Assembly (NCBI GenBank): GCA_002780065.1
Contig: PEWQ01000028.1
Span: 1-14,433, forward strand
Length of the DNA: 14,433 nt
From: Candidatus Hydrogenedentes bacterium CG07_land_8_20_14_0_80_42_17
GTDB lineage: Bacteria > UBA8481
Direction: 5' to 3'
The position numbers and the translations under genes are program-made. This document shows positions 17 through 14,060 of the stretch, piece by piece (the stretch's first letter is position 1; every line of letters starts with the position of its first letter). The notes below the pieces were generated by a model, which was not told the origin of the DNA, ran no database searches, and saw nothing but the letters and a program-made list of their open reading frames with translations.

Positions 17-721
17 TTAATTAGCTGTTGTTCCGTATCCTATAACTCTTTGACGATAAAAATTTTCTGAAACAAGTGAGGATATAGTCACCTGATTTTT
101 TCCGCTCGATGCGTGAATGAATTCTCCGTTTCCAATAAATATTCCAATATGATCAGGATTCCTGAAAAAAACGAGATCCCCCGGTTTTAGTTCATTGCGG
201 GATACATGTCGAACAAAGTAATACATTTCTCTGGCAGTTCTCGGAAGCGAGATACCAATATCTTCAAAAACATATTGGACAAGTCCGGAGCAATCAAAAC
301 CGTTTGGAGAAGTACCGCCCCAAGAGTAACGAGTGCCTAAATATGCCATCGCATGACTTACAACTCGAGCGCGCCAACTTTCATTTTGCTGAAAACTATA
401 AGAACCGATATCCTCATTTTGATTTTCGGATACCTTTTCATTTGATTCCGATGATACCACTTCAATTCTAGCAGCAATGTTTTGCTCACGTCCGGAAATA
501 GAAACATTTCTTTCTGAAGGCAGTGAATTTTGCGAAACCGTATGAGACTTAGTTTCAATCGATTCAAGTTTCAAAGGTATTGGAGAAACTGCGGCAAATG
601 CTTCATTTGATGTGAGAGGCATAGGCTGTATAGAAGGAAATGAGGAAGCAAATGCAGTGCCGACTATCGGCGTTAGAAACAGCGCTGCCCCAAAGATGGG
701 GATCCAGAAAGTCCGTTCCAT
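17..721 (-). CDS. Exported NlpC/P60-family cell-wall peptidase
   Basis: Likely a periplasmic or surface cysteine peptidase that cuts peptide bonds in peptidoglycan (family knowledge). The C-terminal ~120 residues form an NlpC/P60 domain. In numbering from the longest frame (start 805), the nucleophile is C172 in FDCSGLVQYVF, followed by H219 in DHIGIFIG and H231 in FIHASSG, so the triad looks complete. Between the signal sequence and the domain is a ~90-residue Ser/Glu-rich linker with no recognised fold. I chose the ATG at 721 rather than the upstream one at 805. From 721 the protein (234 aa) starts MERTFWIPIFGAALFL, a normal signal peptide ending near AFAS. From 805 it would carry 28 extra Arg/His-rich residues, and the predicted promoter would leave almost no leader. 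The Shine-Dalgarno before 721 is weak (AAAGG, long spacing), so the start is not certain; the family call is strong. It is divergent from the glycosyltransferase pair. Confidence 0.9.
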   Translation of the reverse strand: MERTFWIPIFGAALFLTPIVGTAFASSFPSIQPMPLTSNEAFAAVSPIPLKLESIETKSHTVSQNSLPSERNVSISGREQNIAARIEVVSSESNEKVSENQNEDIGSYSFQQNESWRARVVSHAMAYLGTRYSWGGTSPNGFDCSGLVQYVFEDIGISLPRTAREMYYFVRHVSRNELKPGDLVFFRNPDHIGIFIGNGEFIHASSGKNQVTISSLVSENFYRQRVIGYGTTAN

Positions 722-816
722 CGCAACCGAAAACCTTTTACGGCCTCGATACCCATGATGGACGGAACCAATCCAGATGCGCTTATGCTGGGTTATCCTA
801 CGCATCGGAGCATTTC

Positions 817-3964: not shown

Positions 3965-4753
3965 TTGAAAAAAGCGAAGACCTCACGGATTGTCGGGGTA
4001 CTTATACTTTTATTAATTCTTTTCGGGCTGAGCTTGGATTTTTGGCGAGCCAGCCGAGCTAAAAACGATATAGAACTAAAAGTAAAAAAAGCTGTAGAAG
4101 AGGCGGCAATGTATCTTCCTTACAGACCACACGAAGCTGTTCAGGCCGGTTTGAGTGCTTTGGAGTCAATGAAGATTAATTCGGATCCTGGCAGTGTAAC
4201 CGTTACGCCCGACGGTTATGCTCTTAAAATTTCGATTTATTCCGACGTTCCTTCTTTCTTTTCATGGATCATAGGTTTTTCAAAGATACGCTTCAAAGCA
4301 GAGAAAGAGGCAAGAATAGAGGTTGACGGTGCGGCGCCGTGCGATGAAGTTTCGGCGGATCAGGTTCTATTTGGAATAGTACCGGAAGCACCGGTTTCTT
4401 TTGACAGAGATATAACTATAGAAAGAGGCAGAGACAAATCTAATCGAGCTTTCGATATTTCTGGTAAGGCAATGCTTAAGGTTGGAGATAAACCCGTTCT
4501 GAAAGAAATTGCTTCTTTCGAAAAAATTGCATTGCATGACAGAACGATTGCGGTTATTTTATCTAGGCGTGGAGAGCTAGAACCGGAGATTTTGGGGTTT
4601 GGAGCTCTTGAGATTATAGGAACGGATTCGGAAGGAAATTTACGCGCGCGTTTCATTCAGTCGCAGGTGGAAGGCGATCCGAAGGTATTGCTTTCCAAAG
4701 AACATGATTTTGGATTGAGGCGCGGGGGAACACCGAGAGCGGTAATAAATTGA
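3965..4753 (+). CDS. TadG-like pseudopilin-type protein (putative)
   Basis: Membrane-anchored protein of the Tad apparatus, most likely a TadG-type minor component. A single membrane helix (residues about 8-27) is followed by LDFWRASRAKNDIELKVKKA and VEEAAMYL, matching the TadG pattern in which a helix ends in a Asp and runs into an Arg/Lys- and Ala-containing helix. Residues 86-120 (ALKISIYSDVPSFFSWIIGF, then KIRFKAEKEARIEV) match the usual TadE/TadG core of a beta strand, V-P-x-F-F, a loop ending in Gly, and another strand. The remaining ~140 residues are soluble with no recognised domain. There is no G-E-like prepilin peptidase site before the helix, so it is probably not processed as a pilin. 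It starts at TTG behind a strong ribosome binding site and lies directly upstream of CpaB, the secretin and TadZ. Without this context I would only call it a hypothetical membrane-anchored protein. Confidence 0.65.
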   Translation: MKKAKTSRIVGVLILLLILFGLSLDFWRASRAKNDIELKVKKAVEEAAMYLPYRPHEAVQAGLSALESMKINSDPGSVTVTPDGYALKISIYSDVPSFFSWIIGFSKIRFKAEKEARIEVDGAAPCDEVSADQVLFGIVPEAPVSFDRDITIERGRDKSNRAFDISGKAMLKVGDKPVLKEIASFEKIALHDRTIAVILSRRGELEPEILGFGALEIIGTDSEGNLRARFIQSQVEGDPKVLLSKEHDFGLRRGGTPRAVIN

Positions 4754-4838: not shown

Positions 4839-5834
4839 TTGAATCCAAAATTGTTGATTATTATTGGAGCAGTTGTCGGAGTATTGTTTCTGTCGGCAAT
4901 TGGCGCGTATTTTTTCATATTTCGTTCTACTCAGCCCGTTGAAGATCCCGCGCTTGCCGCTCAGAAGTTGGATTCTGACAGTGACGGTTATACCGATGTT
5001 GATGAATTAGCTCAAGGAACTGATCCTAAGGATTCAAAACGGTTTCCAGGCTCGCATAAGAATGTTTTATTTGCCAAGCAGGATATTTCAGCAAACATAT
5101 TGATTACCGAAAATATGCTGGATGTAAAAGAGGTTGCGGCAAAGGGAGAAGCGCCCGACGCAACGGTTTTAGATCTGGACCGCGCGAGGGTTGTAGGACA
5201 CATTTCAACTGTCGATATAAAGACGGGAGATTTTGTGGTTGACGCGATGATATTTGGTGGACAGCCAAAACTTGCTTTTCTCGTTCCTCAATATAAACGC
5301 GCAATTTCTTTGAAGTATGATGAGCTTGCGGCAGTCAACGGTCTTATTCAGTTGGGAGATATTGTTGATGTAATCGGTCATTTCAGAGTTCAACGCCGTG
5401 AAGGCTCTCCGATAGATTATACTCGCATTATTGTGCAGAATGCCCGAGTGATTGCGATCGGTCCGAGATTTATTCCGAAATCGGAAGCCGACACATCGCC
5501 CGAAAGTATTCCGACCGGTTTGACCCTTTCTGTTTTTCCTCATGAAGCCGAGCGGCTTATCTGGGCTGAGAATTATTTAAGCGGTGGAGCGTTGGGCGCT
5601 CGACTTGTTCTTGCATTGAAATCTCCGATGAACAGCGCTCAAGAGAATACTGCCGGAGTTTTAGACAATACGTTAATTGGGAAAGACATAATAGCAGATC
5701 CAAGAGCAATAGAAATTTATCATGGAACAAAATACGGCGGAGTAGCGAGATTTGGAAGACCTGACGATGAGAGAATGGGATTGAATAAATTAGAAGGCTC
5801 TCAGTTGGCTCCTCAGACTGGAGTAGGACAATGA
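4839..5834 (+). CDS. cpaB: CpaB/RcpC Tad pilus assembly protein with calcium-binding-type insert
   Basis: Periplasmic Tad assembly factor thought to work with the secretin (family knowledge). An N-terminal anchor (residues 4-28) is followed by an Asp-rich motif, then a SAF domain (about 74-140: VLFAKQDISANILITENML ... VVGHISTVDIKTGDFV) and an RcpC/CpaB domain (about 145-262: KRAISLKYDELAAVNGLI, QLGDIVDVIG, IIVQNARVIAIG, LTLSVFPHEAERLIWAENY, GALGARLVLALK). That order is diagnostic for CpaB. The odd part is residues 45-65, DSDSDGYTDVDELAQGTDP plus KD, which fit a thrombospondin type 3 or EF-hand-like calcium loop and are not part of an ordinary CpaB. The last ~65 residues form a poorly conserved tail. 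It starts at TTG and overlaps the secretin start by ATGA, so dosage of the two is probably coupled. Confidence 0.88.
   Translation: MNPKLLIIIGAVVGVLFLSAIGAYFFIFRSTQPVEDPALAAQKLDSDSDGYTDVDELAQGTDPKDSKRFPGSHKNVLFAKQDISANILITENMLDVKEVAAKGEAPDATVLDLDRARVVGHISTVDIKTGDFVVDAMIFGGQPKLAFLVPQYKRAISLKYDELAAVNGLIQLGDIVDVIGHFRVQRREGSPIDYTRIIVQNARVIAIGPRFIPKSEADTSPESIPTGLTLSVFPHEAERLIWAENYLSGGALGARLVLALKSPMNSAQENTAGVLDNTLIGKDIIADPRAIEIYHGTKYGGVARFGRPDDERMGLNKLEGSQLAPQTGVGQ
4971..5033 (+). other. Thrombospondin type 3-like calcium-binding motif in CpaB
   Basis: Codons 45-65 encode D-S-D-S-D-G-Y-T-D-V-D-E-L-A-Q-G-T-D-P-K-D. Acidic side chains at 45, 47, 49, 53 and 56 have the spacing of a DxDxDGxxDxxE calcium loop, and the G-T-D-P end is typical of bacterial thrombospondin type 3 repeats. 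It sits between the membrane helix and the SAF domain. Confidence 0.65.
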
Positions 5835-8800
5835 GACGTTATTATTCAGCAATTTTACTTCTTTTAATTCTTGCCGGAGCCCCGATTTTTGCTCAGTCTG
5901 TAAGGCCTTCTCAAAATGTTCCGGATGTTTACGTAGCCGCAAACAATTCTTTTGTCATAACCGTTCCAAATCTTACGAAGGTTGCTGTTGGAGATCCTCG
6001 AGCGGTTTCCGCCAGTGTTGTCTCTCCGACTGAAGTTCTTATTCAAGGCTCTTCTTCGGTATCGAAGCCGGATGGAAAACTTAATTTTGCGACTTCGAAT
6101 GTTTTTGTGTGGTCCGGCGACAGACGCTACGTTTACAGAGTAGTAGTTATAGAGAATGACGAATCTGCATCTTATCCGTACGGCGTAGACCGCATAGATG
6201 TTGAACCAAATAGAATAATATTCCGCGGCGCTTCCAATAATGTCGACCGCACCAAAGCTGAATGCAGAATTATGTGCGAATCTTTGGGATTGAAATATGA
6301 AATTAAAGTTGAAGCTCTTCAATTCGTAGGCGCTATGACCGCAGCGGCTGGTGTTTCAAGAGAAGTTATCGATGATGCAGTGAAAAGAAATCTTGTCGTC
6401 GTCGGAATGACTCTCGACGATTTGAAGCACTCGCGCGGCGAACTTCCTCCGCCTTATCGTTCCGATGCTTCGACCTCGGGTGTGATTGATTATTACAATC
6501 TTGAAGATGTAATTGTCGGAGTAATGAACGGAATTGTTATTGAAGCTGATAAACTTAATAGCATATCCGAAGAGCTTATTCAGACAGCAAAAGAAAATTC
6601 ATTGATTATGGCCGGCATGACTGATTCGCAGGTATTTTCTATTTTGGGTCAGCCTCCGGTTTCTCCGATCGTGAAGGAAGAAAATAAAATAATAGTTCGA
6701 GAATATGCTTATCCGACGATGCGAGTTATTACCAGAGATGGAATTGTCGAAAGTGTTTCATCAAACCATCCTTTGATTCCAAGCAGCATTACGCCTCAAA
6801 AAATAGATTTGGGTACGACTGTTTCTGCAACCGGTCAAACATTGGTAATGAGAGCTTATCGACTTCAGTACATATCAGGCGCAGACTTAGAGAAGAACTT
6901 ATCACTACTTTCGAAGGCTTGGGGGACAAGCATTGGTTTTACCACCGGATATACTACAGACGGACTTTTCGCAATAGTAAGCGATACTGCGACGATTTCG
7001 ATTGTTGACGGTTTGGTCATTCTCTGGGATAGACCGATGACTCAGGCTCCGATTGCTATTCAAGAGACGAAATACACGATACCGGAAGGCAGACAGTGGG
7101 ATGGAATAGCAAGGGTATGGCAGGTTATTCCTGCTCGTGAAGTCGGTTTCTTGATGGCGCGATTTAATAATTCTGTAAGTGAAGCTAGAAGAAAAAATGT
7201 AGCGGACGAAATTAATAGATCGATTTCTACTTTGCCTGTGATTCCTTTTGCGTCGCCGTTGAGTATGAATTTAAGCGGAGCGACTTTAACTGTGACCGGA
7301 GTGCCTGAACAAGTTTCGATTATAAAAAATATTTTAGAAGGAATGATACCTGACATTATCGGGAAAGATTTGAATTCGGCTGTTGCTCAGGGAATTCTTC
7401 TTCCCGGAATGACGAAACAGCAGATTGAGGCTGCGAGGGGAGTCAAACTCGATGCTGGAAGGCGAGTTGAACTCTCGAATGGCAGTATCGGCTGGCTGTA
7501 TGAGTTAGGAGACCGAGCAGTTTTGTTGAATGAAGATATTCTCTCAGAAGAGAGAATGTATCCTGCAGGCGATGCGGTAAGGAATGCGAAGAGTGAAAAG
7601 AAACTGATCAGGTATTTATTGAGATCAGATGTTGAATCGATACTTGGACAGACTCCAAAAAGAATAACTCGAAGAGAAGATGGAATCACAGTAGTGAACT
7701 ATGATTTTGGCGAAGCATTATATTGGAACGATAGACTTGAGAGCATGAACGGTCTTGCGGGTTCAGAAATGCAGAGACTGGGAATATCCGTCTCTGTGCC
7801 TTCGACTGACGGAGTAGATTTCCAACTGCTTACTCCGGAAGAACAGCAGACTGTTATTCGCAGAGGAGTAGTGATGACCGGAATGACCGAACGCGACGTA
7901 GCGCGTGTGGTCGGGCAGGCTCCGTTCAATATAAAACCTGGCACTCTTCCCAACGAAAAGATTTACGTATATTCGGATTATGAAGTCACTTTCAGCGATG
8001 GAATTGCTTCGAAGGTGACATCGATCGGAGAGGGCACGCCGAGAATTATTGCTCTTCGTTCGCGCAGAGCATCTGACATGGTTTCACTGATTCTTTCTAG
8101 TTTTTCAAACATGTCTGAAGTCGGTCTTACAGCGGATACTGTTTCAAATCGGCTTATCGTTCGCGCAACTAATGACAAATTTATCGAGATAGAACGTTTC
8201 TCGAAAGCGATGGATCAGCAGGAAGTTCCTCAGGTATTGATTGAAGCTAAGTTTGTTGAGATGAATCGTCAGGCGGCAAAACAGCTCGGAGTTGAATGGG
8301 GACTTTCGACTCAGGCTGACGGAGGCAACAAGCCGTTTGTAGGATTCGGCGGTTCTTCATCGAGAACTGATGCTCAGACTCAACCTGCGGCTGGAGTAGT
8401 CACCGGAACTACCGGTTCCGGCGGCACAAATCAGACAATTTCGCTCGGCGGAGATGCAGGAATGCTTTTGGGAATGTTTGGCGGAAATGGTTTCTCATTC
8501 GGCGGATTGAGATATGCAAATGTCGATGTAATGGTTTCTGCTCTCGAATCTCGCGGAGATGCTGAAGTGTTATCTTCTCCGAGAATCGTCACACTTAATA
8601 ATCAAAATGCCTCATTGAAATCGATTGAGACTGTTTACGATGTGACAACGACTCAGACGATAGATCCTCTTACGGGTTTGACGACATTTTCAACTACGAC
8701 CAGTCCGAAGGATGTGGGAATCGAACTAAAGGTCAATCCTACGATTGGGCAAGACGGAGTCATTTCGCTGGATATTGACGCAACAGTTTCCAGAGTTGTA

Positions 8801-9175
8801 AGAACGCATAATTACGGAGTAGGATCGAATGTAATAATCATAAATGAAACGAGCGAAAGAAATTCCAAATCGCGTGTTATGGTGAGAACCGGCACTCCGC
8901 TTGTTATCGGAGGACTTTCTTCACGCGACTCAACTAGGACTGAACAGAAAGTTCCGTTCCTCGGAAATATTCCTATTCTTGGGAATTTATTTAAGTCGCA
9001 ATCAAAGGTTGGAACAGATGTTGATCTTCTAATCTTTCTTACGGCCCGCATCGCCCCGCCTGACGGAACCATTAGCTCTTTGGATCAGGTTTTATCCGCG
9101 CCGCGGCCTCAGATTCAAAATCCTCAAACTAACATTGAATTGCAAACAGCGCCCTCGGCAGGTTTGACTCGATAA
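5831..9175 (+). CDS. cpaC: Giant Tad secretin (CpaC/RcpA-type) with BamE-like repeats
   Basis: Outer-membrane channel subunit of the Tad machine. A signal peptide (MRRYYSAILLLLILAGAPIFA) is followed by a pilus-secretin N-terminal domain (residues 30-107: FVITVPNLTKVAVGDPRAVS, TEVLIQG, VFVWSG) and a weak BON-like stretch (120-163). Secretin N-type modules lie at about 337-403, 425-505 and 736-797. The secretin core runs from 799 to 1077 with VLIEAKFVEMNRQAAKQLGV, ALESRGDAEVLSSPRIVTLN, KVNPTIG and the signature VPFLGNIPILGNLFK (1041-1055). Five SmpA/OmlA/BamE-like repeats occupy residues 173-311 (two), 507-642 (two) and 666-733 (one). Residues 829-890 form a Gly/Ser/Thr-rich insert in the core. 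At 1114 aa it is about twice the size of a usual CpaC. The frame is intact and a GGAG site lies 7 nt before the ATG. It overlaps cpaB by 4 nt and ends 1 nt before the TadZ gene. Confidence 0.92.
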   Translation: MRRYYSAILLLLILAGAPIFAQSVRPSQNVPDVYVAANNSFVITVPNLTKVAVGDPRAVSASVVSPTEVLIQGSSSVSKPDGKLNFATSNVFVWSGDRRYVYRVVVIENDESASYPYGVDRIDVEPNRIIFRGASNNVDRTKAECRIMCESLGLKYEIKVEALQFVGAMTAAAGVSREVIDDAVKRNLVVVGMTLDDLKHSRGELPPPYRSDASTSGVIDYYNLEDVIVGVMNGIVIEADKLNSISEELIQTAKENSLIMAGMTDSQVFSILGQPPVSPIVKEENKIIVREYAYPTMRVITRDGIVESVSSNHPLIPSSITPQKIDLGTTVSATGQTLVMRAYRLQYISGADLEKNLSLLSKAWGTSIGFTTGYTTDGLFAIVSDTATISIVDGLVILWDRPMTQAPIAIQETKYTIPEGRQWDGIARVWQVIPAREVGFLMARFNNSVSEARRKNVADEINRSISTLPVIPFASPLSMNLSGATLTVTGVPEQVSIIKNILEGMIPDIIGKDLNSAVAQGILLPGMTKQQIEAARGVKLDAGRRVELSNGSIGWLYELGDRAVLLNEDILSEERMYPAGDAVRNAKSEKKLIRYLLRSDVESILGQTPKRITRREDGITVVNYDFGEALYWNDRLESMNGLAGSEMQRLGISVSVPSTDGVDFQLLTPEEQQTVIRRGVVMTGMTERDVARVVGQAPFNIKPGTLPNEKIYVYSDYEVTFSDGIASKVTSIGEGTPRIIALRSRRASDMVSLILSSFSNMSEVGLTADTVSNRLIVRATNDKFIEIERFSKAMDQQEVPQVLIEAKFVEMNRQAAKQLGVEWGLSTQADGGNKPFVGFGGSSSRTDAQTQPAAGVVTGTTGSGGTNQTISLGGDAGMLLGMFGGNGFSFGGLRYANVDVMVSALESRGDAEVLSSPRIVTLNNQNASLKSIETVYDVTTTQTIDPLTGLTTFSTTTSPKDVGIELKVNPTIGQDGVISLDIDATVSRVVRTHNYGVGSNVIIINETSERNSKSRVMVRTGTPLVIGGLSSRDSTRTEQKVPFLGNIPILGNLFKSQSKVGTDVDLLIFLTARIAPPDGTISSLDQVLSAPRPQIQNPQTNIELQTAPSAGLTR
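6347..8029 (+). repeat. Five BamE/SmpA-OmlA-like protein repeats in the secretin
   Basis: Units (nucleotides): R1 6347-6553, R2 6560-6763, R3 7349-7558, R4 7592-7756, R5 7826-8029. R1, R2, R3 and R5 share a leading helix, then VGMTLDDL, AGMTDSQVFSILGQPP, PGMTKQQIEAARG and TGMTERDVARVVGQAP respectively; R4 has lost GMT but keeps RSDVESILGQTP. After a variable gap each has an aromatic strand (IDYYNL, REYAYP, WLYELG, VNYDFG, YVYSDY) and most end in a D/N-G-I turn (MNGIVIEA, RDGIVESV, SDGIASKV). The spacing fits the small alpha-alpha-beta-beta-beta fold of SmpA/OmlA (BamE). The repeats are diverged at protein level and not visible as DNA repeats, so they are old. Confidence 0.7.
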
Positions 9176-9176
9176 A

Positions 9177-10430
9177 ATGGCTGGTATTCGAATTGTTCTC
9201 CTTTCAGGTGAGATGGAGGAACGTGTTCGGCTTAAGAAGGCTTTTCTTGTTGAACAGAACATGGAAGTTGTCGGCGAGTCGGATAATGCCGAAGAAGGAT
9301 TGAAATTAATCAAAGATTTAAATCCCTCGATTGTTGTTATTGATTCGAAGTTAGCCGGAGAAAATTCCGATGGGCTTGCCGCCGCGGAGCTAATATCAGT
9401 ATCAGCTCCTGCTTCGGATATCATTATCATTTCAGAAGAAGGAACGGACGGCTTGTTCATGCGTAAAGCAATGCTTGCCGGAGCGCGTCAGGTTATTCCA
9501 AAGCCTTATGATCCTGGCGATTTAATAGAGATTGTCAAACTTGTTGCCAACATAAGCGAAAAGAAGAAAGAGGCGATGGCGAAGCTTCTAGGTGCGAGAG
9601 AAGAAGAGGTAGTCGCATCAAAGACAGTTGCAATTTTTTCTACAAAGGGCGGAGTGGGAAGAACTCTATTAGCGACTAATCTCGCATGTGCGATCAAAAA
9701 ACTTACTGGGAAAAAAGTCTGCCTAGTGGATTTGGATCTTCAATTTGGAGATGTTGCGATCATGATGCATCTTCAACCTAAGAATACCATTGCAGGTCTT
9801 GCTCGAGAGATTGCCGATACTGGAGTATGCGACGATGAGGTTTTAGCAAACCATTTGCTAACGCATGAAGACAGCGGAGTAGTCGTGCTTACGGCTCCGG
9901 TTAGACCTGATGAAGCCGATCTTGTGAAGGGTACGCATATTGATGCTATTGTAAAGAAGTTGAAAGAGAAGTTTCACTATATTGTTATCGACACACCCGC
10001 GTTTTTGACCGATTCAGTTTTGACAGCTCTTGAACTCTCGGACTTTATCTTTTTACTTTTGACAATGGAACTTCCAACAATAAAAGACGGAAAACTTATG
10101 CTCGAAATAATGCAGACATTCGGCTATACGGATGAAAAGGTCAAGATCATAATGAACAGAGAAGCGTCGGATACTTCGTTTAAGAAAGCTGATATTGAGA
10201 AGGCTCTTGATTCCGAAATAGCCGCAACTATTCCGTCAGAAGGCATAGTCATTATGCCGGCAGTCAATGAGGGCGAACCATTTTATATCAGATCGCCTGA
10301 TTCGAAGGCGTCTGCGGCAATAAATGAAATAGTTAAGTTAATTGCCGCAGACGATATCAATCCTGATGCGATGACTGCGTCAAAGCCCGCAAAAAAATCC
10401 GGCGGTTTCTTTGGGAAGAAGAAGAAGTAA
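9177..10430 (+). CDS. tadZ: TadZ/CpaE: receiver-like domain fused to MinD/ParA-type ATPase
   Basis: Cytoplasmic protein expected to place the Tad machine in the cell (family knowledge). Residues 4-125 form a response-regulator-like domain with the acceptor-type Asp at 56 (VVIDSKL), Ser at 86 and Lys at 109 (IPKPYDP). The acidic pair expected near the N-terminus is absent (VLLSGEMEER), so phosphorylation is doubtful. Residues 148-395 form a MinD/ParA-type ATPase: deviant Walker A TKGGVGRT (156-163) with signature Lys157 but Arg162 in place of the Walker lysine, LVDLDLQFGD (183-192) with two Asp, and YIVIDTP (268-274). The tail is GGFFGKKKK after a short flexible linker, possibly a membrane- or nucleic acid-contacting patch (inference). 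The gene starts 1 nt after the secretin stop with only a weak ribosome binding site, suggesting coupled translation. Confidence 0.9.
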   Translation: MAGIRIVLLSGEMEERVRLKKAFLVEQNMEVVGESDNAEEGLKLIKDLNPSIVVIDSKLAGENSDGLAAAELISVSAPASDIIIISEEGTDGLFMRKAMLAGARQVIPKPYDPGDLIEIVKLVANISEKKKEAMAKLLGAREEEVVASKTVAIFSTKGGVGRTLLATNLACAIKKLTGKKVCLVDLDLQFGDVAIMMHLQPKNTIAGLAREIADTGVCDDEVLANHLLTHEDSGVVVLTAPVRPDEADLVKGTHIDAIVKKLKEKFHYIVIDTPAFLTDSVLTALELSDFIFLLLTMELPTIKDGKLMLEIMQTFGYTDEKVKIIMNREASDTSFKKADIEKALDSEIAATIPSEGIVIMPAVNEGEPFYIRSPDSKASAAINEIVKLIAADDINPDAMTASKPAKKSGGFFGKKKK

Positions 10431-10609: not shown

Positions 10610-12091
10610 ATGTCGCTTTTAGAACGTCTTGAATCGATGAAGAAGACTGCGCAGAAAGACAAGACTGCCCGCGCGTCAACGCCGGAAACTCTTTCTCCGC
10701 GCGATTCTCTAAAAAAAAGAGTTCAAGATAAACTAATTGCTGAAATAGATTCGAGCATTTTAAATCAGCCTGATCCTGATCTTAAGCGAACATTGCTCAG
10801 AGCTAGAATCGAAGAAAATATTGCAATCATAGGTTCGGAAATCGGAGTTTCTCTCACTAAAAAAGAACATGAAGATGTAATTAAGGAACTGCTGGATGAT
10901 ATTCTCGGACTGGGTGTAATTCAGCCTTTAGTAGAGGATGAAGATATTTCGGAAATAATGGTGAATGGTCCTAATCAGATTTATGTCGAAAAAAAGGGAA
11001 AAATTATTTTAGCAGACATTACATTTCCAAGTGAAGAATCAGTCCGTACGTGCATAAGCAAAATTATTGCGCCGCTTGGAAGGCGATGTGATGAATCAAT
11101 GCCGTATGTAGATGCGCGTTTGAAGGACGGCTCTCGTGTTAATGCTGTCATACCGCCTTTAGCACTCAATGGCTCGACTATTACAATACGTAAGTTTCAA
11201 AAGAATCCATTGAGGATTCCCGATTTGATAAGGTTTGGCGCGCTTACTGAAACATTTGGGGATTTTTTGAAGGCAACAGTGACAATTGCAAGAAATGTTG
11301 TTGTATCCGGAGGAACAGGTTCTGGAAAGACAACACTGCTTAATGCTCTTTCATCTTTCATAGATGAAGGAGAAAGAATTTGCACTGTTGAGGATGCGGC
11401 CGAGATACAAATCCTTCAGCCGCATTGGATCAGACTTGAGACTAAGGCGGCAAATGTTGAAGGCAAAGGCGCAGTCACAATGCGGGATTTAATCAGAAAT
11501 ACTTTACGCATGAGACCTGACAGGGTCATCGTTGGCGAATGCCGCGGCGGTGAAACTCTGGACATGCTTCAAGCGATGAATACAGGTCACGACGGATCTC
11601 TGACTACGCTCCATGCAAATACCCCGCCTGATGCTGTTCGACGCATAGAGACAATGGTTCTTATGTCCGGAGTTGATCTTCCATCGAGAGCTATACGCGA
11701 ACAGATTGCGTCCGCAATCCATGTGATTGTTCAGCAGTCGAGACTCTCTGACGGTTCACGTAAAATTACGTATATTTCTCAATGCACAGGTTTTGACGGG
11801 CAAGAGGTTCAACTAGCCGATATTTTTAAATACAATCAGACAGAGCTTTCTGAAGAAGGAAAGATAATCGGTAAGTTTGAACCGTGCAGATTCGTTCCGA
11901 CTTTTTACAAACTATATTTGAAGAATGGAATAATAATTCCTCTTACTATTTTTGGTTTTACAAAGGCGGAATCTGTGGAATGGATAAATAAAAATCTGCA
12001 GGATGAAATCAAGCGCGCTCCTTCTCTTGTCGAAAAACTGTCGAAAGAGAATGCAAAGATTGATTTCTCTCATATTAGAGCGGGACATTAA
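10610..12091 (+). CDS. tadA: TadA/CpaF motor ATPase
   Basis: Hexameric cytoplasmic ATPase that powers pilus assembly or secretion through the TadB/TadC platform. After a charged N-terminal tail (1-35) and a helical region (36-105) come the CpaF blocks: LGVIQPLVEDEDISEIMVNG (101-120), SMPYVDARLKDGSRVNAVIPP (163-183 region) and TITIRKF (190-196). The catalytic core has Walker A GGTGSGKTT (234-242), the acidic segment CTVEDAAEIQI (258-268), Walker B RVIVGECRGGE (305-315) and the His box GHDGSLTTLHANTP (326-339). All key residues are present. The normal family end is near KNGIIIPLTIF (438-448). Here about 45 further residues follow, charged and helical, without recognised identity. The gene starts a separate transcription unit with tadB, tadC and DUF192. 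Confidence 0.95.
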   Translation: MSLLERLESMKKTAQKDKTARASTPETLSPRDSLKKRVQDKLIAEIDSSILNQPDPDLKRTLLRARIEENIAIIGSEIGVSLTKKEHEDVIKELLDDILGLGVIQPLVEDEDISEIMVNGPNQIYVEKKGKIILADITFPSEESVRTCISKIIAPLGRRCDESMPYVDARLKDGSRVNAVIPPLALNGSTITIRKFQKNPLRIPDLIRFGALTETFGDFLKATVTIARNVVVSGGTGSGKTTLLNALSSFIDEGERICTVEDAAEIQILQPHWIRLETKAANVEGKGAVTMRDLIRNTLRMRPDRVIVGECRGGETLDMLQAMNTGHDGSLTTLHANTPPDAVRRIETMVLMSGVDLPSRAIREQIASAIHVIVQQSRLSDGSRKITYISQCTGFDGQEVQLADIFKYNQTELSEEGKIIGKFEPCRFVPTFYKLYLKNGIIIPLTIFGFTKAESVEWINKNLQDEIKRAPSLVEKLSKENAKIDFSHIRAGH

Positions 12092-12109: not shown

Positions 12110-13117
12110 ATGCTTCAACTAGTTGTAGGTGCATTTCTACTAATTTGTATTGCTGTTGTAATATTGCTTGTTAAACGAGTTAAAACTCGTGATGATGGAA
12201 CGAATAAACTTGAGAAGACGCTCGCTCCTTATATTGACAGAGATTATTTCCAAAAACTTGAAAAGCTTGAGGCTGAAGAGGCGACTCTCGGAATTAAAAA
12301 AAAGAGCGCTCTAACTAACGTTTCCAAGATAATCGAAAAGGTTGTTGTCTTTGAAGGTTACAGGCAGAAATTGGCAGTGAAACTCTCTGCCGCCGGAATG
12401 CAATGGCGCGCCAGCGAATTTCTGACTTTGATGATGATTATCGGAGTCTTCTGTTTCTTCTTGGGAATGGCTATAGGAAAGATTATGTGGAACAATCCTT
12501 TGATTGTCGGAATTCCGTTGGGCTTTATTGGTTTTCAGTTTCCAAATTTAGTTCTCGGATTCAAAAAGTCTTCTAGACAAAAAGCTTTTCAAGGCCAGCT
12601 TGTCGATACTCTCGGACTAATTTCGAATTCTCTGAAAGCTGGATACTCTTTTCTTCAGGCAATCGAGATGGTATCGCGCGAAGCGCCTTCACCAACAAAA
12701 GAAGAGTTTCAAAGGCTCATAAGAGAAAATTCTCTGGGTATGCCTTTAGATGACGCGCTTGAAGCGTTGGGCAAGAGAATAGAGTCAGAAGATTTCAACC
12801 TAACGGTTACTGCTGTTATGATTCAGAGACAGATCGGAGGTAATCTCGCTGAAGTTCTTGAAAATATATCTGCAACGATTCGTGAGAGATTAAAACTTAT
12901 AGGCACAATTAAAGCTTTGACAGCTCAAGGAAAGATGGGCGGAATTGTGATTACTGCGCTTCCGACAGGACTTTTCGCCATAATGTATTTTCTAAATCCG
13001 GACGTGATGGGAATGTTGTTTCAAGAAAAGGTCGGTTGGATTTTAATTGGCATCGGACTTTTCATGCAGGGGCTTGGAGCTTTTGTCATAAAAAATATGC
13101 TGAACGTGGAGATGTGA
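12110..13117 (+). CDS. tadB: TadB inner-membrane platform protein
   Basis: Integral inner-membrane component that, with TadC, forms the platform driven by TadA. An N-terminal membrane helix (residues 4-22) is followed by a charged cytoplasmic linker (23-100). Two hydrophobic segments (103-122 and 130-149) precede the GspF-type domain (about 160-282), with VDTLGLISNSLKAGYSFLQA (165-184), DDALEALGKRIESEDFNLTV and IQRQIGGNLAEVLENISATI (238-257) as typical TadB blocks. Two C-terminal membrane segments (about 277-296 and 307-328) finish the protein. Length (335 aa) is normal. It follows tadA after 18 nt with a GGGG ribosome site, and ends 1 nt before tadC. Confidence 0.92.
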   Translation: MLQLVVGAFLLICIAVVILLVKRVKTRDDGTNKLEKTLAPYIDRDYFQKLEKLEAEEATLGIKKKSALTNVSKIIEKVVVFEGYRQKLAVKLSAAGMQWRASEFLTLMMIIGVFCFFLGMAIGKIMWNNPLIVGIPLGFIGFQFPNLVLGFKKSSRQKAFQGQLVDTLGLISNSLKAGYSFLQAIEMVSREAPSPTKEEFQRLIRENSLGMPLDDALEALGKRIESEDFNLTVTAVMIQRQIGGNLAEVLENISATIRERLKLIGTIKALTAQGKMGGIVITALPTGLFAIMYFLNPDVMGMLFQEKVGWILIGIGLFMQGLGAFVIKNMLNVEM

Positions 13118-13118
13118 G

Positions 13119-14060
13119 ATGCTTGGAACAATTGTAATCATCATAATTATTTTGATGCTTATCGGTGTCGGCATCGCTATATGGTTTGTTAAGGGCTCAA
13201 AGCGAAATATTGCCAGAGAGCGGCTGTTTGAACTGCTTGAACAGTCTAAACAAAGACAGCGCGGACAATCACTCGCCTCTTTTGATCAAGAACAGCTCGA
13301 TAAATCATTTTTCGAGAGAGTAATTCAGCCCGTGCTCGATAATTTTGCCAAGAAGATGCAGAAGGGGAAAAAAGGGAAGAAGGTAGACAAAATCGGAGAA
13401 CTGCTTATTCGCGCGGGCAATCCTGGAAACTTGACCTCGGGTCAGTTTAGAGCTCTGCAGATGCTTTCCGCAATGATATCCGTTACTCTCTTTGCTTTCC
13501 TTGCGTTGATCGGTTTAATTCCTCTACAGTTTGTAATGCTACTGCTTGTAATTGGCGCAGGATTTTCATTTGTGATTCCGCAGTTTTGGCTGACCAAGAA
13601 AGTGACGACTCGGCAGAAGGCAATGCGAAAGTCTTTGCCTGACTTGTTGGATTTATTGACTGTTTCAGTTGAGGCCGGACTTGGATTCGATCAAGCAATA
13701 CAGAAAGTTATCGAGAGGATGAAGAATCCGTTGACTGAGGAATTCGACAGGATGCTTCAGGAAGTAAAAATAGGCTCGGTTCGCAAAGACGCACTAAAGG
13801 CATTGACGGCTCGAGCGCAGGTGCCGGAACTCGATACATTGATTTCAGCAGTCATTCAAGCGGATACTCTTGGCGTCTCCATCGGACAGATTTTGAGAAT
13901 TCAGTCTGATCAACTGCGCACAAAGCGTAGGCAGATGATCGAAGAGATGGCTCAGAAACTTCCGATCAAAATGCTCTTCCCTATGATATTTTTTATCTTT
14001 CCAACAATTTTTATTGTCACTTTAGGTCCGATTGGCCTCAAGGTTTGGAAGTCGATGTAA
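13119..14060 (+). CDS. tadC: TadC inner-membrane platform protein
   Basis: Second GspF-type platform protein, partner of TadB. A membrane helix at residues 4-24 leads to a Lys/Gln-rich cytoplasmic stretch (25-95). Hydrophobic segments at about 113-133 and 137-157 precede the GspF domain (171-285) with SLPDLLDLLTVSVEAGLGFD (172-191), EEFDRMLQEVKIG (207-219) and IQADTLGVSIGQILRIQSDQ (246-265), all typical of TadC. The C-terminal block LPIKMLFPMIFFIFPTIFIV (281-300) is the conserved final helix. Length (313 aa) is normal. A GGAG site sits 7 nt before the ATG. The DUF192 gene follows after 6 nt. Confidence 0.92.
   Translation: MLGTIVIIIIILMLIGVGIAIWFVKGSKRNIARERLFELLEQSKQRQRGQSLASFDQEQLDKSFFERVIQPVLDNFAKKMQKGKKGKKVDKIGELLIRAGNPGNLTSGQFRALQMLSAMISVTLFAFLALIGLIPLQFVMLLLVIGAGFSFVIPQFWLTKKVTTRQKAMRKSLPDLLDLLTVSVEAGLGFDQAIQKVIERMKNPLTEEFDRMLQEVKIGSVRKDALKALTARAQVPELDTLISAVIQADTLGVSIGQILRIQSDQLRTKRRQMIEEMAQKLPIKMLFPMIFFIFPTIFIVTLGPIGLKVWKSM

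Follow-up and report, generated by a model that had tools for sequence, protein, structure and literature searches.

A Tad secretin from Candidatus Hydrogenedentes with five BLIP/BamE-like modules in its periplasmic arm

Secretin arms and the crossing of the periplasm

The link between the outer-membrane channel and the inner-membrane ring of Tad systems is debated, and different species are thought to solve this problem differently. In Pseudomonas aeruginosa, the secretin RcpA binds the dodecameric RcpC ring through its VirB9-like N-domain, and its periplasmic portion is not long enough to cross the periplasm unaided (PMC12307814); the S-domain of RcpA (residues 381-416) binds the pilotin TadD (PMC10499894). 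Caulobacter has CpaI, a distinct VirB9-like protein that connects the secretin CpaC with CpaB close to the peptidoglycan; CpaI is missing from many Tad systems (PMC13170226), so that their membranes must be linked otherwise. The PilQ secretin of Thermus thermophilus forms six stacked rings that span most of the periplasm (PMC5745081). Here we describe a Tad secretin whose arm appears to have grown through the insertion of five BLIP/BamE-fold modules.

The Tad operon and the layout of its secretin

The stretch of DNA that we analyzed (hereafter, the window; 14,433 nucleotides of contig PEWQ01000028.1) belongs to the 2.39 Mb draft genome of Candidatus Hydrogenedentes bacterium CG07_land_8_20_14_0_80_42_17. 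The phylum is represented in our sample by two genomes, this one and the metagenome-assembled genome 'Candidatus Hydrogenedentota bacterium isolate J006' (RFFU01000011.1; hereafter, J006). Both encode an Omp85/BamA protein, which implies that both organisms have an outer membrane.

The Tad operon in the window consists of genes for a membrane protein (3965-4753), CpaB/RcpC, the secretin, TadZ, TadA, TadB and TadC, followed by a DUF192 gene, and the gene order in J006 is identical. On the forward strand, we identified the CpaB/RcpC alignment protein (4839-5834; TIGR03177, 93.7 bits at a cut-off of 71; SAF and RcpC domains from Pfam, and a TSP3 repeat), a TadZ/CpaE-type ATPase with a response-regulator receiver domain at its N-terminus (9177-10430; Pfam AAA_31 and Response_reg), the TadA/CpaF ATPase (10610-12091; T2SSE, E 8.9e-63), and the platform proteins TadB (12110-13117) and TadC (13119-14060), both with T2SSF matches. 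The TSP3-like calcium-binding repeat of CpaB (DSDSDGYTDVDELAQGTDP) occupies residues 45-65, between the membrane helix and the SAF domain, and is also present in J006. The conserved membrane protein directly upstream of cpaB shows 30% identity between the two genomes and no match in a Pfam search; it is perhaps TadE/TadG-like. A gene for a divergent NlpC/P60 peptidoglycan endopeptidase (17-805, reverse strand) adjoins the operon. Apart from the main operon, both genomes contain a cluster of TadE/TadG-like minor pilin genes (locus L158, 6435-9536, reverse strand, contig G000:C131); no pilotin gene was recognized in these clusters (L158 and L159), and the window contains no gene for a TPR lipoprotein.

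The secretin gene (5831-9175, forward strand) is a single intact ORF of 1114 residues with Pfam Secretin and Secretin_N matches, and occupies the RcpA/CpaC position in the operon. The PF00263 core, the VirB9-like/pil_N domain and the adjacent cpaB, tadZ, tadA, tadB and tadC genes identify it as a Tad secretin of the RcpA/CpaC type. Relatives were sought in viral contigs, plasmids and genome contigs; none was found in the first two, and among genome contigs only J006 encodes one. This relative aligns over its full length, with approximately 38% identity overall, 66% in the N-terminal domain, 56% in the barrel, and 25-37% in the repeats described below.

The N-terminus is a seven-stranded VirB9-like domain (T2SS-T3SS_pil_N; residues 31-112, window positions 5921-6166; this and all other domains are on the forward strand). 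The score for PF13629 was 17.1 bits with hmmscan alone and 24.8 bits with neighbors in the genome search, at a cut-off of 23, and the model of the domain superimposes on TrwF/VirB9 (8rt6_B; Z 8.9, 2.1 Å, 73 residues). This domain is the expected contact site for CpaB/RcpC; a search of both genomes for another PF13629 protein found none. It is followed by a small, tentatively BON-like domain (residues 117-165; 6179-6325) that is recognizable by its predicted strand-strand-helix-strand order only and has no Pfam match. Further along the arm, the ring-building Secretin_N domain Na (residues 335-404; 6833-7042) corresponds to the Secretin_N match at residues 384-443 of the J006 relative; this segment gathers nearly all the matches from secretins of other genomes and shows a match to HofQ N1 at E 0.1. 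A second ring-building-like domain, Nb (residues 425-508; 7103-7354), is tentative, with a helix-strand-strand-helix order predicted at low confidence and no Pfam match. N3 (residues 738-797; 8042-8221) is a clear Secretin_N domain (PF03958, E 1.6e-8), and the core that forms the double beta-barrel (residues 904-1074; 8540-9052) covers positions 1-167 of the 169 in PF00263 (E 4.5e-40; 137.5 bits at a cut-off of 27.5).

The core begins near residue 900, whereas in a sample of 50 other secretin frames it begins at about residue 670 at the latest. Some of these frames are cut by locus ends, and other secretins of the window genome and J006 are longer still. Indeed, both genomes encode a giant secretin (L165:3883-12336, reverse strand, G001:C88; L164:4119-8759, reverse strand, G000:C204) with an exceptionally long arm: Ig-like domains and STN are accompanied by about 21 Secretin_N domains (residues 449-2087) ahead of the secretin core, which is followed by four HHH_3 motifs and by a match to T2SSK (GspK); the copy in the window genome is cut by the contig end and retains 12 Secretin_N matches. 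The presence of a secretin with some 20 Secretin_N domains in both genomes suggests that long arms are habitual in this lineage. Two more unusual secretins were noticed, one in which an Ig-like extension follows the barrel (L166:4976-9547, forward strand, G001), and a GspD-like one with TPR repeats before N0 (L167:288-2957, forward strand, G000).

Five repeats and their fold

Residues 175-733 of the secretin (6353-8029) include the five divergent units that the earlier note had placed there. To assess these repeats without circularity, each repeat position was held out in turn and sought with a profile of the remaining four from both species, with 1000 shuffled proteins as the control. R1 (residues 175-241; 6353-6553; 26.4 bits), R2 (residues 244-311; 6560-6763; 37.1 bits), R3 (residues 514-576; 7370-7558; 16.6 bits, and 32.7 bits in J006) and R5 (residues 669-733; 7835-8029; 19.4 bits) scored 16.6-37.1 bits in the window protein (J006: 20.7-41.6 bits), values that none of the 1000 shuffled proteins reached. 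R4 (residues 581-641; 7571-7753) gives a marginal score in the window protein (5.1 bits, reached by one shuffled protein in 1000) and a clear one in J006 (12.6 bits, reached by none). The J006 secretin carries all five repeats at the same positions; the repeats are real and are conserved between the two genomes. Some details of the earlier description change. A leading helix, previously assigned to four units, is present in all five, and the unit ends in four strands (helix-helix-four strands in R1 and R3, with three strands in R4). The reported loss of the GMT motif from R4 applies to the window protein and not to J006, in which R4 has GLT.

The decay of R4 in the window protein, together with the high divergence of the repeats, is what would be expected if the modules were passengers of a duplication-prone gene that are merely tolerated. 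We consider this improbable, given that all five have stayed in place in two families that belong to the same order, despite an overall identity down to 38%, and that the GMT, glycine and aromatic core positions are retained.

Searches with single repeats or single proteins against Pfam and the PDB yielded little or nothing, and profiles were required. With Pfam BamE (PF04355; cut-off 23.2), the complete proteins scored 18.6 bits (window) and 19.7 bits (J006), and single repeats 14.2 bits or nothing, with a sub-threshold match at residues 259-279 within R2. The repeats contain the GMTxxxVxxxxG helix motif and an aromatic strand in the alignment. A profile of all ten repeats retrieved BLIP (beta-lactamase inhibitory protein) first from the PDB (E 0.003), ahead of an unrelated reductase (0.047), TpgA (0.12) and numerous chains of BamE (from 0.16), and profile-profile comparison (hhalign) with six BamE-like sequences gave a probability of 89%. 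The AlphaFold2 model of R1-R2, for which the alignment rows were the other repeats of both secretins, has a mean pLDDT of 84.9 (about 85-90 in R1) and consists of two modules, each with two helices packed against an antiparallel sheet of four strands. With this model, Foldseek placed BLIP-I at the top (E 2.1e-3), followed by SAV1118 and YjgB. For R2, VIA-align aligned BamE from three genera, OsmE and BLIP at Z 5-6 (2.7-3.0 Å over 54-61 residues), with Z 6.0 for BamE (2.7 Å, 55 aligned) and OsmE, and Z 5.3 for BLIP; these scores are moderate, and nearly all top rows belong to one superfamily. R5, taken from a weak model of the whole arm (model residues 637-713), matched SAV1118 (4h0a_A; Z 7.8, 3.0 Å, 62 residues), the same chain that tops the R2 list. 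That whole-arm model, built from two sequences (pLDDT 50, pTM 0.25), is too weak for the arrangement of the modules, and its Foldseek matches were mostly Ig-like and cadherin chains.

Taken together, the sequence profiles and the AlphaFold2 model make it very probable that the repeats adopt the BLIP/BamE superfamily fold. The earlier assignment to the SmpA/OmlA family therefore holds at the level of the superfamily, with BLIP, BamE and OsmE as the best-matching known families, but not for PF04355 in the strict sense. The possibility that these are ordinary secretin N-domains was rejected: the repeats show no Secretin_N match, their helix-helix-four-strand order differs from beta-alpha-beta-beta-alpha, and separate Secretin_N domains, N3 and another one between the two repeat blocks, are recognized in the same protein, alternating with the repeats.

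The arrays appear to be rare. Among 386 genomes (one per species, from part of the phyla, so that rarer occurrences are possible), the repeat profile detected arrays only in the window genome and J006, and in 50 other secretin frames it found nothing better than E 0.7. Beyond the two secretins, the matches are mostly single domains of secreted proteins or lipoproteins with the motif GMTxxxVxxxWGxP. The best one outside the phylum (E 2.8e-9) is a C-terminal BLIP/BamE-like domain in a Copper-amine-oxidase-N protein (L122:418-1692, forward strand, G053); matches in two efflux-type proteins (L127 and L141) look like chance. A search of the open-access literature yielded no description of a secretin that contains BamE, OmlA or BLIP-like domains, in agreement with the earlier note, which knew of no described secretin of this build.

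The relationship to BamE, a lipoprotein that belongs to the Bam complex of the outer membrane, had led to the proposal that the modules direct the secretin to this membrane or hold it there, in place of a separate pilotin, and a search for CpaD in both genomes indeed found none. However, the BamE-like motif by itself is no proof of a role in outer-membrane assembly. The fold also occurs in secreted proteins of Gram-positive bacteria (YjgB and SAV1118) and so carries no outer-membrane address. None of the five repeats contains a cysteine, and there is no lipobox or other lipoprotein signal; the repeats are internal and unlipidated, in contrast to pilotins of the TadD/PulS/PilF type. They lie N-terminal to N3, far on the periplasmic side and away from the membrane barrel. 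Furthermore, the secretin keeps a 39-residue tail after the barrel (9056-9172), at the same position as the S-domain of RcpA and similar to it in length; the last residues of RcpA bind TadD (PMC10499894). The replacement of a pilotin is thus poorly supported, and we regard it as very unlikely.

Possible roles of the modules and comparison with known systems

The reading that we somewhat favor is that the main role of the modules is to lengthen the arm, which the earlier note had mentioned as an alternative and which fits the data better than targeting or anchoring. Two modules follow the N-terminal (VirB9-like and BON-like) part and precede the ring-building N-domains; the other three come between those N-domains and N3. 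About ten domains separate the N-terminus from the barrel; at 2.5-3 nm each, by our estimate, these would be of the order of the width of the periplasm. Given that the VirB9-like domain is 66% identical between the two genomes and matches TrwF/VirB9, that CpaB is intact, and that the searches of both genomes found neither another PF13629 protein nor CpaD, the simplest interpretation is that the five modules lengthen the arm. The late start of the core and the giant secretin of both genomes agree with this reading. Under this scenario, the modules would serve as structural spacers or brackets within the periplasmic cylinder, holding the VirB9-like domain far from the outer-membrane barrel, and the secretin itself would bridge the periplasm to the CpaB/RcpC ring, taking on the task that falls to CpaI in Caulobacter, or to the six stacked N-rings in the PilQ of Thermus. 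More tentatively, the modules could be a second type of ring-building block that stacks into closed rings, making the secretin a single-protein conduit from the outer membrane to the CpaB ring, with arms that, in this lineage, can be extended by unrelated folds.

The same modules might instead project laterally from the secretin wall as binding domains that hold a partner, such as a pilotin-like or scaffold lipoprotein, a chaperone or peptidoglycan, without lengthening the channel. The closest folds do bind proteins: BLIP grips beta-lactamase with its tandem pair, and BamE attaches to the Bam complex; a BamE-like domain also occurs in TpgA. Because BLIP/BamE folds usually bind proteins, a binding role would be equally natural. 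The division into two separate clusters and the divergence of the surfaces would fit partner binding, and the greater divergence of the repeats compared with the barrel is compatible with spacers as well as with rapidly changing partner surfaces. Nevertheless, no candidate gene for a partner is evident in the conserved operon, and there is no sign of a binding surface common to the five modules. We consider lateral binding less likely than lengthening. For arm lengthening, as for its alternatives, the arrangement is known from two genomes only. A secretin with a different fold inserted in its arm, in two blocks, is a natural experiment on both the length and the composition of such arms.

The closest known counterparts are RcpA of P. 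aeruginosa and CpaC of Caulobacter, which share with the window secretin the core, the VirB9-like N-domain, the C-terminal tail and, in CpaC, N3, along with the operon partners CpaB, TadZ, TadA, TadB and TadC. Unlike RcpA, with one periplasmic domain, and CpaC, with two, the window secretin has about ten, among them the five BLIP/BamE-like modules as well as additional ring-building domains. With PilQ of Thermus, it shares an arm multiplied, in PilQ, to span most of the periplasm; PilQ, however, multiplies the usual ring-building fold, whereas here a different fold is inserted. BLIP and BLIP-I resemble the repeats in the tandem two-helix, four-strand module with the GMT motif, but BLIP is a free secreted inhibitor and the modules described here are inside a membrane channel protein. 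BamE/SmpA-OmlA, OsmE and TpgA share the GMTxxxVxxxLGxP helix motif and a superposable fold (Z 5-6 over 55-57 residues); they are single domains, lipidated or linked to OmpA, in contrast to the repeats, which fall below the PF04355 cut-off and lack a lipobox. The likeness to CpaI is one of proposed work, namely bridging the secretin and the CpaB ring, which in Caulobacter involves a separate VirB9-like protein and in the window secretin would be accomplished by a BLIP/BamE-like insert.
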